Made by a program: the position numbers and the translations under genes. 64,000 nucleotides of DNA, from positions 1 to 64,000 of the forward strand of contig CACYJH010000011.1 in assembly GCA_902774685.1 (NCBI GenBank), read 5' to 3'. The notes under the pieces were generated by a model. It was not told where the DNA came from, made no database searches, and saw only the letters and a list, made by a program, of their open reading frames with translations. The first letter of the stretch is position 1. Each line of letters begins with the position of its first letter. This document shows positions 37,235 to 46,829 of this stretch, in pieces. This DNA comes from an uncultured Methanobrevibacter sp. GTDB lineage: Archaea; Methanobacteriota; Methanobacteria; Methanobacteriales; Methanobacteriaceae.

Positions 37235-37453
37235 TTGATTTTTAAAATTAATAAAACTTTCTAAAAATGCTCTAATTATAAAATTAAAGCAATTTTATAA
37301 TTTAAAATTAATTTATAAGATAATTACTATCCTATATTAAAATTAAAGCAAAATTATGTAATAAAAATAATATTCCAATTAAATTACAAGATTATAAAAA
37401 ATAGTAAAGATTAATATAAAAATTAAAAAATAGATACTAAAATAAAAAAAAGA

Positions 37454-37511
37454 ATGGTTAAAAAACCATAGAAAAAGTTTTGGTCAAGGTTTTGCCTAAG
37501 GCAAAAGCTTG
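37454..37511 (-). terminator. Two-hairpin 3' element behind the CBS gene
   Basis: After the stop of the CBS gene the minus strand has hairpin 1 (TTTTGCC-TTA-GGCAAAA, extended by CAAG/CTTG with a mismatch), the core ACCTTGACCAAAACTTTTT, hairpin 2 (ATGGTT-TTTT-AACCAT) and a T run. The same order and core recur at 44180-44243 at the end of iorB. Hairpin 2 plus the T run looks like the terminator proper. Confidence 0.65.
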
Positions 37512-37514
37512 AAC

Positions 37515-38351
37515 TTAAAGTAAAGTTTTAATTAAATCACTAGCTCTGACGAGTCCAACGAGTTCTCCTTCAATTCCTAAAACAGGTAATTGCTCAACAT
37601 CGAGAGATCTCATTTTTTCAGCACATACAGAGACTTTGGTTTTGGTGTTTGCAGTGACTACGTCTTTAACTGCAACATCCTTAAATACCTTATCAGTAAA
37701 TTTGAGATGGTTTTTCTCAATGTACAATACGGAAGTACTGTCCCATGACCATTTGTCTCCTTCAGTACCTACTGAAGAGCTGTGTTCGGTTCTTTCAGAG
37801 ATGATTTCACTTTCAGCAATGAAATCGGTTTCAGTCAAAATACCGGTCATCTTGTTGTTGGAGTTTAATCCTACAATAGATTTTAATCCGAAGAATTTCA
37901 TTACTTCAAATGCTACATTCAATGGAGTTTCATCCCAAGTTGCAGGAATGGTTTTGATCATATAATCTTCTACAGGCTCTTTGATTCCCATATCTGCAAT
38001 AGCTAAAGCTACAATATCAAAAGAAGTTACGATTCCTACTAATTCATCATCATCGTTTATTACAGGAATTCTTCTAATGTTGTTTTCAACCATCTTTTCT
38101 GCAACGGTTTTTAATTCATCATCCATTTTTGCAGTAATTAAATCTCTAGTCATTAACATTGCAATTTGTTCTTCATCAGGATTGGTGATCATATCAGAAC
38201 GAGTTAATATCCCGACTAATTTGTTAGTATCATTTTTAATAACAGGCACTACAGATACATCCTCTTTTTTCATGATTCTTAAAGCATCTTCTCTGCTTCC
38301 TGGAACAGTTACATGAATAACATCTGTAGACGCTACATCTTTTACTTTCAT
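37515..38351 (-). CDS. Four-CBS-domain protein
   Basis: The 278-residue protein consists of four CBS domains in two Bateman pairs (about 1-60, 65-125, 130-190 and 220-278). Repeated signatures include VSVVPVIKNDTNKLVGILTRSDM, IRRIPVINDDDELVGIVTSFDI and EQLPVLGIEGELVGLVRASDL. An insertion between domains 3 and 4 (about 185-215) contains a Trp-Ser-Trp stretch. No catalytic or DNA-binding domain is attached, so it probably senses adenine nucleotides or SAM and acts on a partner. The start is the ATG at 38351 with GGTG eight bases upstream; an in-frame ATG at 38363 is less likely. Confidence 0.9.
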   Translation of the reverse strand: MKVKDVASTDVIHVTVPGSREDALRIMKKEDVSVVPVIKNDTNKLVGILTRSDMITNPDEEQIAMLMTRDLITAKMDDELKTVAEKMVENNIRRIPVINDDDELVGIVTSFDIVALAIADMGIKEPVEDYMIKTIPATWDETPLNVAFEVMKFFGLKSIVGLNSNNKMTGILTETDFIAESEIISERTEHSSSVGTEGDKWSWDSTSVLYIEKNHLKFTDKVFKDVAVKDVVTANTKTKVSVCAEKMRSLDVEQLPVLGIEGELVGLVRASDLIKTLL

Positions 38352-38697
38352 AAGTAACACCATAATTGATTTTTAAATAAGATTGAAATTAAATAGTATT
38401 ATGATAATTCATGTGTTTAAAAATTAGAAAGTCCATCTTGTTTTTCTCTTTCCCAATTATCACATACTTAAAATATTTTTGTTAAATTTTAACAAAAAGT
38501 AAACTTCTTATTAAACATTTGTTAATATATTTTTTATCCTTTAAATAATTTTAGTATAAATCATGAAAAATTAGTAAAAAAAATAGGAAATTAATGGATT
38601 ATCGAAAAATTTTATATTAAAAATAGAAAAAATTATAAAAAATTTTATAAAAAATGTGCAAAAAAATAAGAAAAAAATAATTAAAAAAAGAAAAGAT
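38352..38697. other. Intergenic region before the CBS gene with a palindrome
   Basis: The 346-base gap between the CBS gene and the universal stress protein gene (both minus) holds a 23-base inverted repeat at 38476-38498 (listed separately) and, at 38590-38695, A-rich low-complexity DNA at the 3' side of the stress-protein gene. No reading frame is supported. Confidence 0.5.
38476..38498. promoter_or_regulatory. Perfect inverted repeat upstream of the CBS gene
   Basis: TTTTTGTTAAA-t-TTTAACAAAAA, two 11-base arms around one base, about 125 bases before the CBS gene ATG and therefore near its probable promoter. The GTTAAA/TTTAAC core suits a dimeric repressor site, but AT-rich DNA gives such palindromes by chance more easily. 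Confidence 0.4.
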
Positions 38698-44155: not shown

Positions 44156-44836
44156 TTAAAATAAAAATAAAAAAAGAAATAGTTGGAAACTCCCAACTAG
44201 TAAAAAGATTTTGGTCAAGGTTTTATAGCCGAAGGCTATAAAAGCATTATAACCATTTTCAATAGCTTTTAAATTCATTTCATGGAATTTAGGAGCTAAA
44301 TTGTTTTTCATTGCAGTTTCAACGGTTTCCTTTGAAAGTGGGAAATCCTCATTTGCAACACATGCACCTAAAAGCACCATATTCAAGGATAAGATACTTC
44401 CAGCATCCACTGCAAGCCCATTTCCTTCAATTGGGAAAACTGAATCAAAATTGTCCTTAAGATTCCTTACAATGTCATCAATTTCAGGATAGGTCTCTCC
44501 AGTTTGAGTCAATGTTGAAGGCACAATAGGGAAAGTATTGAAGATTAAGGTTGTGTCCTTGTTTGCCTTGTTCAATCCTCTTAAGACTTCAATAGGTTCA
44601 AAAGCAAGAATCAAGTCTGCCTTAGATTCCTCTACAATTGAGGATTTGAAATTTCCTATCTTAAGTTCAGTTGACACGGATCCTCCCCTTTGACTCATAC
44701 CGTGAATCTCACTCATTACAACATCATAACCTTCAAGCATTGCAGCTTCACCAATGATTACAGATGTTTTGATAATTCCTTGACCACCTACACCGGAAAT
44801 GTAAATACTGTAATTGTTTTTATCATTACTCGCCAT
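44156..44836 (-). CDS. iorB: Indolepyruvate ferredoxin oxidoreductase, beta subunit
   Basis: The protein (226 residues from the ATG at 44836) is IorB, the small subunit that with IorA oxidises aryl pyruvates to aryl-acetyl-CoA with ferredoxin, or runs in reverse for aromatic amino-acid synthesis. It shows ISGVGGQGIIKTSVIIGEAA, EIHGMSQRGGSVSTELKIG and the family C-terminal EMNLKAIENGYNAF. About 26 residues follow that are foreign to the family (IAFGYKTLTKIF..., ending in Phe/Leu repeats): they are encoded by two hairpins and a T run at 44180-44243, an element also found behind the CBS gene. AAGGTGAT precedes the ATG, which starts one base after the iorA stop. Confidence 0.92.
   Translation of the reverse strand: MASNDKNNYSIYISGVGGQGIIKTSVIIGEAAMLEGYDVVMSEIHGMSQRGGSVSTELKIGNFKSSIVEESKADLILAFEPIEVLRGLNKANKDTTLIFNTFPIVPSTLTQTGETYPEIDDIVRNLKDNFDSVFPIEGNGLAVDAGSILSLNMVLLGACVANEDFPLSKETVETAMKNNLAPKFHEMNLKAIENGYNAFIAFGYKTLTKIFLLVGSFQLFLFLFLF
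44180..44243 (-). terminator. Two-hairpin 3' element read through by iorB
   Basis: On the minus strand: hairpin 1 TTTTATAGCC-TTC-GGCTATAAAA (10-base arms, 44221-44243), core ACCTTGACCAAAATCTTTTT, hairpin 2 TAGTTGG-GAGTTT-CCAACTA (44180-44199), then a T-rich run. The architecture equals the element at 37454-37511. Here the iorB frame has no stop before the element and runs through it to 44156. Confidence 0.7.
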
Positions 44837-44837
44837 C

Positions 44838-46829
44838 TTAATCACCTTTCTTTACTCCAATAGCTTTGTTCGGACAGACTTGTATACAAACGGTACATGA
44901 TTTACATAATGCTTCATCAACAACTACCTCATCATTCAGATAAGAGATAGCAGGACATGCAAGAGTCTTTACGCAAGTAAGGCATTTTACACAATTGTCC
45001 TTAATGACCATAGGTGCCTTTTTCTTTTGTCCTTTAATCAATGTACATGGGTATCTTGCAATTACAACAGCAACACCATCGTATTCAAGCGCTTCCTTGT
45101 AAATGTCAACAGTCTTTTTGATGTTGTGAGGATTTACAATCTTCAAGAATTTTACTCCAATGGCTTCCACAATATCTTCAATGGAAACAGCAGGAGCTTC
45201 ATCTCCCATTCCATCAACTGGAATACCTGGGTTTGGCTGACCACCAGTCATTGCAGTGATTCTGTTATCTAAAATTGTAAGCACAAACTTGTTCTTGTTG
45301 TGAACTGCATTTACAAGTGGAGATAATCCGCTGTGGAAAAATGTAGAATCTCCAATGAAACTCATTACATGCTGATTGGTTGCTATTGAGAATCCGCAAC
45401 CGTCACCTACAGATGAACCCATTGCAAGCAAATAGTCTGCAGTTTCATAAGGAGGAGAAATTCCTAAGGTATAACATCCAATGTCAGATGCAAAAATCAT
45501 ATCCTCTTTTGCATATCCAAGCTCTTCGTAAGCCTTTACAGCCGCATAATAAGCGGATCTGTGGGAACAGCCTGCACATAATGTTGGAGCTCTTGTTGGA
45601 ATGCTTTCTATAAGTTGGTTCAATCCATCTGTAAATTCCATCTTTTCAACGATTTCTATTAAATCTCCATCAAGGTCTTTGCCGTTTTCTGATTTGTACT
45701 CTTCTAAAAATTCTTTATCTTCAACCAAATCAGAAACAACCTTGTTGATGGATTCCTTTACAATGTCTGGATTGTATTCATGAACCATTGGGAAAGTTCC
45801 ATCAAACTTACCATAGACAGGACAATCCAAATTATTCTCACCAAGAACAGCAAGAACATCCCTTTCAAGTACTGGATCAACTTCCTCTACAATGAATACT
45901 CCTTCCAAGTTCTTACAGAAGTCATAAATCAAGTCCTTTGGAGTTGGGAAAGAAAATGCCATTTTAAGGATATCCATTCCTAAGTTCTCTTGTGAAACAA
46001 CATCATAAGCATAATTAAAAGCCCCTCCAGAGGAAATTATACCAAACTTACCTTGAAGTGAGCCGTTTTCAAATGAATATACTTCATTGACAGGACTTTC
46101 ATTTGCCACTTCTTCCATTTTCTCCATTTTCTCTGCAAGTCTTGAATGCATTGACAATGAATTTGCAGGTACGGGTACGAATTCGCTTGGATTCTTAACG
46201 AAATATCCTTTTAACCAATGGTTATCTGTTTCAGTTGCCTTTGTAGTGGATTTAGGTTTTTCTATTCCACCGCATTCCACAATTCCTCTCATATGAGATA
46301 CACGAGTGCTTGTTCTGAGAATTACTGGAATTCCAAACTGTTCGGATAAGTCAAATCCATAAACCATCATGTCCTTTACTTCCTGAGGATTTGAAGGTTC
46401 TAAAATTGGAATGGAAGAAAGTCTTGAATAGTTTCTTGTATCCTGTTCATTCTGTGAAGAGAAGAGTGAAGGGTCATCCGCTACAAGAATGATCATTCCT
46501 CCCTTAACTCCTGAGTAGGCAGTTGTCATGAATGAGTCAGCAGCTACGTTCAATCCTACATGCTTCATGAAAGTAAATGATCTGAGACCACTTGCAGCTG
46601 CAGTAGCTGCAACCTCCATAGCCACCTTTTCATTTGCAGAAAATTCAAAGTACATTTCTGCATTTTTAGCAACAACTGATAATATGTTACCTATTTCAGA
46701 AGAAGGAGTTCCTGGGTAAGTTGCTGCAACTGATACGCCAGCTTCAATAGCTCCTCTAACAGCAGCTTCATTACCTAAAAGGAAAAGCTTATCTCCTTTT
46801 TCACTAGTTACTAATTGATCATAAGCCAT
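44838..46829 (-). CDS. iorA: Indolepyruvate ferredoxin oxidoreductase, alpha subunit
   Basis: The 663-residue protein is IorA, the thiamine-diphosphate subunit. Residues 1-400 hold the pyrimidine-binding and transketolase-C-like parts (GNEAAVRGAIEAGVSVAATYPGTPSSEI, FMKHVGLNVAADSFM). The TPP-binding core includes CAGCSHRSAYYA, SDIGCYTLG, MGSSVGDGCGFSIA, GDSTFFHSG and LDNRITAMTGGQPNPG. The C-terminus carries two ferredoxin-like [4Fe-4S] motifs (CVKCLTCVKTLACP and CKSCTVCIQVCPNK), the first with an atypical spacing. It is somewhat longer than the family's usual 600-odd residues. GGTGAATTT precedes the ATG, and it is coupled to iorB, one base apart. Confidence 0.95.
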   Translation of the reverse strand: MAYDQLVTSEKGDKLFLLGNEAAVRGAIEAGVSVAATYPGTPSSEIGNILSVVAKNAEMYFEFSANEKVAMEVAATAAASGLRSFTFMKHVGLNVAADSFMTTAYSGVKGGMIILVADDPSLFSSQNEQDTRNYSRLSSIPILEPSNPQEVKDMMVYGFDLSEQFGIPVILRTSTRVSHMRGIVECGGIEKPKSTTKATETDNHWLKGYFVKNPSEFVPVPANSLSMHSRLAEKMEKMEEVANESPVNEVYSFENGSLQGKFGIISSGGAFNYAYDVVSQENLGMDILKMAFSFPTPKDLIYDFCKNLEGVFIVEEVDPVLERDVLAVLGENNLDCPVYGKFDGTFPMVHEYNPDIVKESINKVVSDLVEDKEFLEEYKSENGKDLDGDLIEIVEKMEFTDGLNQLIESIPTRAPTLCAGCSHRSAYYAAVKAYEELGYAKEDMIFASDIGCYTLGISPPYETADYLLAMGSSVGDGCGFSIATNQHVMSFIGDSTFFHSGLSPLVNAVHNKNKFVLTILDNRITAMTGGQPNPGIPVDGMGDEAPAVSIEDIVEAIGVKFLKIVNPHNIKKTVDIYKEALEYDGVAVVIARYPCTLIKGQKKKAPMVIKDNCVKCLTCVKTLACPAISYLNDEVVVDEALCKSCTVCIQVCPNKAIGVKKGD

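Follow-up and report, generated by a model that had tools for sequence, protein, structure and literature searches.

A contig of an uncultured Methanobrevibacter species carries, directly behind two of its genes, an element made of two hairpins and T-runs around a shared 12-nt core, and the question is what such an element does at gene ends and how it is kept there. The window, by which we mean the whole 64,000-nt stretch analysed, belongs to an incomplete archaeal genome of 2.07 Mb (32.5% GC), where it is contig C11. An initial annotation, made from the letters of the window, had placed one copy behind the gene for a CBS-domain protein and another at the end of iorB, and had read them as a dispersed unit selected for its structure. 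Both copies are indeed present with the exact core. The literature searched gave no description of the element; the words terminator and hairpin are absent from the M. ruminantium M1 genome paper, and a search of the window against Rfam gave no matches at the gathering score. The features of the two copies, with the evidence for each in brackets, are as follows.

CBS-gene copy
37515..38363 (-), gene for the CBS-domain protein, with its TAA stop at 37515-37517, 3 nt before the element (ORF list)
37444-37514 (-), whole element 3' of the CBS gene (sequence)
37485..37511 (-), hairpin 1 (sequence, RNA fold, covariance-model match)
37511-37508/37488-37485 (-), foot of hairpin 1, CAAG/CUUG (sequence)
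37507/37489 (-), C·C mismatch (sequence)
37506-37503/37493-37490 (-), UUUU/AAAA helix (sequence)
37502-37494 (-), inner stem-loop GCC-UUA-GGC (sequence)
37478-37489 (-), exact core (sequence search)
37478..37484 (-), unpaired ACCAAAA after hairpin 1 (near-invariant columns in 97 copies)
37471..37477 (-), first U-tract, CTTTTTC (sequence)
37454..37469 (-), hairpin 2, ATGGTT-TTTT-AACCAT, a locus-specific version (fold)
37444..37451 (-), distal T-run, T8 (sequence)

iorB copy
44156..44845 (-), iorB ORF (ORF list, orthologue comparison)
44169-44243 (-), whole element at the iorB end (sequence)
44221..44243 (-), hairpin 1, UUUUAUAGCC-UUC-GGCUAUAAAA, foot absent (fold, orthologue comparison)
44209..44220 (-), exact core CCTTGACCAAAA, without its foot partner (sequence search)
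44180..44199 (-), hairpin 2, TAGTTGGG-AGTT-TCCAACTA, of the TTGGGAG type (hairpin-2 comparison)
44169..44175 (-), distal T-run, T7 (sequence)

Architecture of the module

Side-by-side comparison of all own-genome copies gave the full module, written as RNA, as CCAAG-C-UUUU-(variable stem, often GCC-UUC-GGC)-AAAA-C-CUUG-ACCAAAA-nn-UUUU. The core had been described as a motif in its own right; instead, its CCTTG part pairs with the upstream CCAAG and forms the 3' side of a lower helix, the CAAG/CUUG foot, which had been missed. A C·C mismatch lies between this foot and the UUUU/AAAA helix, and in many copies a second C·C lies above the helix. Among 97 distinct copies the lower position is C·C in 71 and C-G in 20, while the inner stem is free in sequence and its loop is usually UUC. 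Single copies folded as RNA reach z-scores of -3.5 to -8.4; for hairpin 1 of the CBS copy the fold gives z=-4.06 and the covariance model 55.9 bits (E 1.5e-11).

We distinguished three classes of foot, which are compensatory variants of one another. Class A (CAAG/CUUG) and class B (CCAG/CUGG) have the C·C mismatch, whereas in class C (CAAAC/GUUUG) a C-G pair replaces it, and GATCAAAA mostly stands where the other classes have GACCAAAA. Pairing is also kept in the rare feet TCCG/CGGA, found 3' of the XPD-type helicase gene in G016, and TTAAG/CTTAA, found 3' of pMurD, where the stop codon itself forms part of the foot.

Hairpin 1 is followed in order by GAYCAAAA, a tract of U4-6, often a second hairpin, and a long T-run. 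The GAYCAAAA segment (8 nt, 7 of them unpaired) is near-invariant in the 97 copies. A U-tract adjoins nearly every module, tracts of U4 or longer stand in series 3' of the stop codon, and most copies have a further T6+ run about 15-35 nt downstream (usually some 25-40 nt by a second estimate, counted from the first tract); the proposed location between gene end and T-run was borne out. Hairpin 2 lies within a few nucleotides of the T-run. Its arms had been called unrelated, which is not always so: about 40% of copies (37/97) have TAGTTGGGAG, or a sequence close to it, as the 5' arm. Others have a locus-specific version, such as the CBS type that recurs in the orthologues of G005, G008 and G017. 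The second hairpin 3' of uS2 and histone is kept in several species, and in some copies (orc1, glmS) none is evident. In a test of sense-strand folding energy hairpin 2 came out better, with more G-U pairs, and hairpin 1 had the opposite sign; the T-rich composition biases this test, on which we did not rely.

Being modular, the unit can also occur in tandem. One to three modules stand at a site, followed by the second hairpin and long T-run; tandem modules occur at uS2 and lysS of G016 and at PII of G007, and argS of G005 has three, of classes C, A and B. Before complete modules at several unrelated genes (L309, L293, L304, L167, L342 and L276) we also noted a partly duplicated 5' arm, with CCAAGCTTTTnn twice running; such duplications could be a clue to module insertion or exchange.

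The iorB copy of the window is damaged and a poor guide to this structure, and for that reason the initial annotation saw the inner hairpin as the sole shared one. At the iorB end the relatives read ...AAAGACAAGCTTTTATAG, and the copy of the window lacks AATTAAAGACAAGC, with the gap between two GC dinucleotides. Altogether 14 nt are absent relative to G005, G008, G015 and G017, either through a real mutation or through an assembly error; the foot and the element-borne TAG stop are lost, and the frame continues through hairpin 1, core and hairpin 2 to a TAA at 44156, which is 33 codons past the conserved query end. The read-through adds a hydrophobic tail (44156-44250, -).

Copies and their positions in the genome

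Both the genome-wide search for the core and the covariance modelling that had been suggested as checks were run. Base composition predicts 0.23 exact matches to the 12-mer in the genome; the search gave 15, and all 15 cores stand at gene ends, each with a flanking hairpin, and not at random sites within genes. Eight further copies have the sister form CCTGGACCAAAA, and the extended pattern TTGAYCAAAANHTTTTNH has 27 matches against none for the reversed control. Covariance model R1, which we used for copy counts with a cut-off of E<0.01 in the own genome, found 43 copies, with best E-values to 1e-17, confirming that the unit is dispersed. Core matches with two mismatches are no more frequent in the window than by chance (8 versus 9.9 expected), and one-mismatch matches inside genes are without the foot helix.

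Nearly all of 156 distinct copies start 0-5 nt 3' of a stop codon in sense orientation, and in two species copies begin 2-4 nt downstream of tRNA-Val genes. At iorB and one other gene end (L101) the stop codon, a TAG within the stem, belongs to the module. The own-genome junctions (n=42) comprise 17 convergent, 20 distant codirectional and 5 tight ones; tight operon junctions are avoided (5/42 copies versus 22/55 window genes, p=0.003), and a few copies, among them that of XPD, lie less than 100 nt from a codirectional gene. The genes upstream of copies are mostly housekeeping genes, including those for prefoldin alpha, rpoL, an XPD-like helicase, GET3/ArsA, two orc1/cdc6, TFB, glmS, two thermosome genes, uS2, P-II, metX, ilvC, radA, ftsZ, lysS, histone, EF-1beta, SHMT, pMurD1, a SufB/D protein, AtwA, MTAP and argS; one further gene looks DnaK-like, as judged by its C-terminus only.

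Covariation of the paired positions

With the structure fixed beforehand, we counted changes on both sides of pairs and compared them with shuffled alignments. The own-genome copies have 35 both-side changes versus 9 in shuffles, the 97 copies from five species 172 both-side cells versus 46, and a further independent set of 66 copies 87 changes versus 20, with no shuffle as high in any of the three sets. Because of the relatedness of the copies and the fitting of two of these alignments to the model, the shuffle counts should not be read as probabilities. When the structure is slid along the alignment, the signal collapses. In addition, inheritance in one column would not easily account for whole foot classes being interchanged. 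The view that structure is kept while the arms vary in sequence therefore stands.

Taxonomic range and orthologous gene ends

In 19 genomes of the genus, the covariance model gave matches in 17, of which 15 have 18-77 copies and two have 1-4; G009 and G010 had none. The highest number, 77, was found in G003, a single contig. Across 139 genomes of the family, a single copy at E<=1e-5 was found in each of only two genomes outside the genus, and the module is nearly absent from the rest of the family, scattered simple forms aside. Weak matches in genera g9, g10 and g13 include such a simple form, CAARCTTTT-n-AAAAGYTTGAYCAAAA, in some cases 3' of stop codons; it may be the ancestor of the module. 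The same palindromic form, sometimes in tandem, was seen in genera without the elaborate module at L362, L365, L366, L371, L372 and L376.

Orthologues of the CBS gene are present in 18 of the 19 genus genomes. The element follows this gene in G000, G005, G008 and G017 and follows iorB in the same four and G015, while most other species have only the stop codon and T-rich DNA at both ends. In G015 (L261) a full module lies farther downstream of the CBS gene, after a long degenerate CAAG/CTTG-rich stretch of partial repeats that looks as if 5' arms had been duplicated many-fold. We then compared 20 module-bearing genes of the own genome with their orthologues, which also bear a module in 17 cases in G005, 14 in G016, 11 in G003 and 10 in G007. 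For G003 the overlap has P=6e-12 under random placement, and common descent of placement is the obvious reason. Five genes (uS2, P-II, radA, lysS and argS) have a module in all five species, but its class or the number of modules differs; thus the slot persists while its module is rewritten. Orthologous genes without a module have plain T-rich ends, which suggests that the module is dispensable for termination as such.

Possible relatives in Altiarchaeales

A GTDB scan yielded at least 88 core matches outside Methanobrevibacter, and among the matches listed three have the CAAGCTTTT foot versus 0.26 expected (p=0.002). All three belong to Altiarchaeales or to an archaeon of the same series (L112:388-629, L094:4122-4400 and L117:2969-3013), hence outside Methanobacteriota, and have the hairpin CAAG-C-UUUU/AAAA-C-CUUG-ACCAAAA. 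The L112 copy lies 3' of a partial copy of a tRNA-Pro 3' end, and the L094 copy lies 3' of a weak match to HgcG RNA that is far under the curated cut-off. The three copies are without a U-tract, and the best structure at L094 is not hairpin 1; we treat them as a lead, not a result. Around the L112 copy, repeated tRNA-Pro 3'-end fragments resemble att-site remnants. The matches to the core at L118 (Methanobrevibacter curvatus) and L093 (Euryarchaeota bin.111) have no foot and were set aside as chance.

These copies bear on a tentative and rather unlikely reading, namely that the module could have expanded locally from an ancient 3'-end RNA motif of Archaea, a C·C-flanked U4/A4 hairpin with GACCAAAA, recognised by a dedicated factor. 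The hints are the foot, the mismatch and GACCAAAA in the Altiarchaeales-like copies, their tRNA-end and HgcG neighbours, and the simple forms in other genera of the family. If this reading were true, Archaea would possess transcript ends of a structured and sequence-specific class.

Function and alternative explanations

The explanation that we prefer, with confidence a little above even, is a modular RNA-level 3'-end element for termination or end protection, in which units of hairpin and U-tract stand in series and work with the archaeal U-tract/FttA system. We favour it because the element offers serial U-tracts, the first of them beside hairpin 1. The placement at stop codons and tRNA-Val genes, the compensatory changes, the C·C mismatch, the avoidance of tight operon junctions, the shared gene set of G003 and the mostly housekeeping genes upstream also speak for it. 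FttA (aCPSF1) binds U-rich RNA and cuts it, leading to transcription end, and its efficient binding in M. maripaludis needs at least two U4 tracts (PMC8716108); the T. kodakarensis complex has its U-rich site 30-36 nt behind the 3' end of the RNA (PMC11616081). As judged from sequence, FttA/aCPSF1 would act, and RNA polymerase would pause, at the serial U-tracts of the module; the hairpin beside the cut site would block 3'-exonucleases and/or aid polymerase stopping. The module would thereby end transcription and define or protect the new 3' end, and modules may be swapped through recombination or local conversion.

Several points count against a terminator. Known archaeal terminators are U-tracts without hairpins (PMC8716108, PMC7515710), and the module would be unusual because archaeal transcript ends are thought to need none. 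GAYCAAAA separates the hairpin from the U-tract, unlike the arrangement in a bacterial intrinsic terminator, the foot and GAYCAAAA are stricter in sequence than a simple terminator requires, and there are the few copies close to a codirectional gene.

The initial annotation had suggested that the unit may serve processing or stability and stand before the terminator; in this reading a dedicated protein would bind it on the mRNA, apart from the termination that follows. The sequence-specific unpaired GAYCAAAA and the conserved C·C do suggest a protein or tertiary contact, and the second hairpin and T-run often found downstream could themselves be the terminator. Nearly every module has its own U-tract, however, and some copies have no clear second hairpin. 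We consider this reading quite unlikely and favour termination over it because of the tRNA-Val cases, where the trailer is removed and a stability tag on it would be pointless. The main rival, which we judge unlikely, is a selfish dispersed DNA element of REP or MITE type that inserts at gene ends, any effect on termination being incidental. It owes this place to the presence/absence differences among close species at iorB and CBS and to the tandem modules; dozens of near-identical copies per genome, the partial 5'-arm duplications and near-confinement to one genus also fit it. Against it stand the strict sense orientation directly 3' of stop codons and tRNA 3' ends and the fact that distant species keep the module at the same genes, with its stems compensated. 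Moreover, Y1 transposase (PF01797) was found in 0/19 genus genomes, with control genomes positive, and reverse transcriptase (PF00078) was above cut-off in only one of the 19, G009, which itself has no copies; spread by either enzyme was rejected, as neither tracks the element. The full class A or B element is absent from 2.9 million viral contigs, in which two class C pattern matches are of uncertain meaning, and phage and plasmid records gave no match to the element. The reverse-transcriptase domains of G009 lie at C56:2325-2987 and C223:16060-16671 (L352 and L355).

It seems very improbable that the module is an integron attC-like site or a signal for DNA uptake or recombination that doubles as a terminator, as uptake signals do in Neisseria and Haemophilus. 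Sites of the attC type, too, begin at stop codons, and a short dispersed motif in inverted pairs at gene ends recalls uptake signals (PMC1852404). We rejected both on copy number and gene context: genomes have 18-77 copies, with the exact core confined to gene ends, versus about 1000 or more for uptake signals (PMC1852404), and the module follows scattered core genes instead of cassettes. That the hairpins arose by chance at ordinary T-rich gene ends would be conceivable, given that the genome is AT-rich and contains T-runs and simple hairpins in large numbers, including at module-free orthologous sites; the probability of this reading is negligible, since it is already refuted by the core and extended-pattern counts, with the covariance-model E-values and strong covariation also against it.

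If the preferred reading of a 3'-end module is true, a genus-wide, covarying, sequence-constrained hairpin would represent a structured class of archaeal transcript ends at histone, thermosome, RNA polymerase, ribosomal and tRNA genes. The module is directly testable in cultured M. ruminantium, and its fixed position with a swapped hairpin class offers a natural experiment on gene-end rewriting.

Comparison with known systems

REP and BIME elements are short dispersed imperfect hairpins with a conserved mismatch, which lie in 3' regions and can be tandem. The module resembles them as a set of dispersed palindromic copies in extragenic DNA and differs in being strictly oriented at a fixed 0-5 nt 3' of the stop, with no RAYT/Y1 transposase in the 19 genomes. 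With the uptake-signal terminators of Neisseria and Pasteurellaceae it shares a dispersed motif, inverted pairs and gene-end hairpins (PMC1852404); unlike them it has far fewer copies, no single copies elsewhere, non-identical arms and three interchangeable classes. The order of hairpin and U-tract at the ends of operons and tRNA genes is that of bacterial intrinsic (Rho-independent) terminators, of which TransTermHP predicts few in Archaea, at 11% of tail-to-tail regions (PMC1852404). In contrast to these, hairpin 1 does not directly precede the U-tract, GAYCAAAA standing between them, and the module has a conserved foot sequence, a conserved C·C and a tandem arrangement. Finally, it is like the archaeal U-tract (FttA/aCPSF1-dependent) terminators in its serial U4-7 tracts at the predicted transcript end just 3' of the stop codon; whereas those have no preceding hairpin (PMC8716108, PMC7515710), the U-tracts of the module are preceded by a sequence-constrained hairpin and GAYCAAAA.
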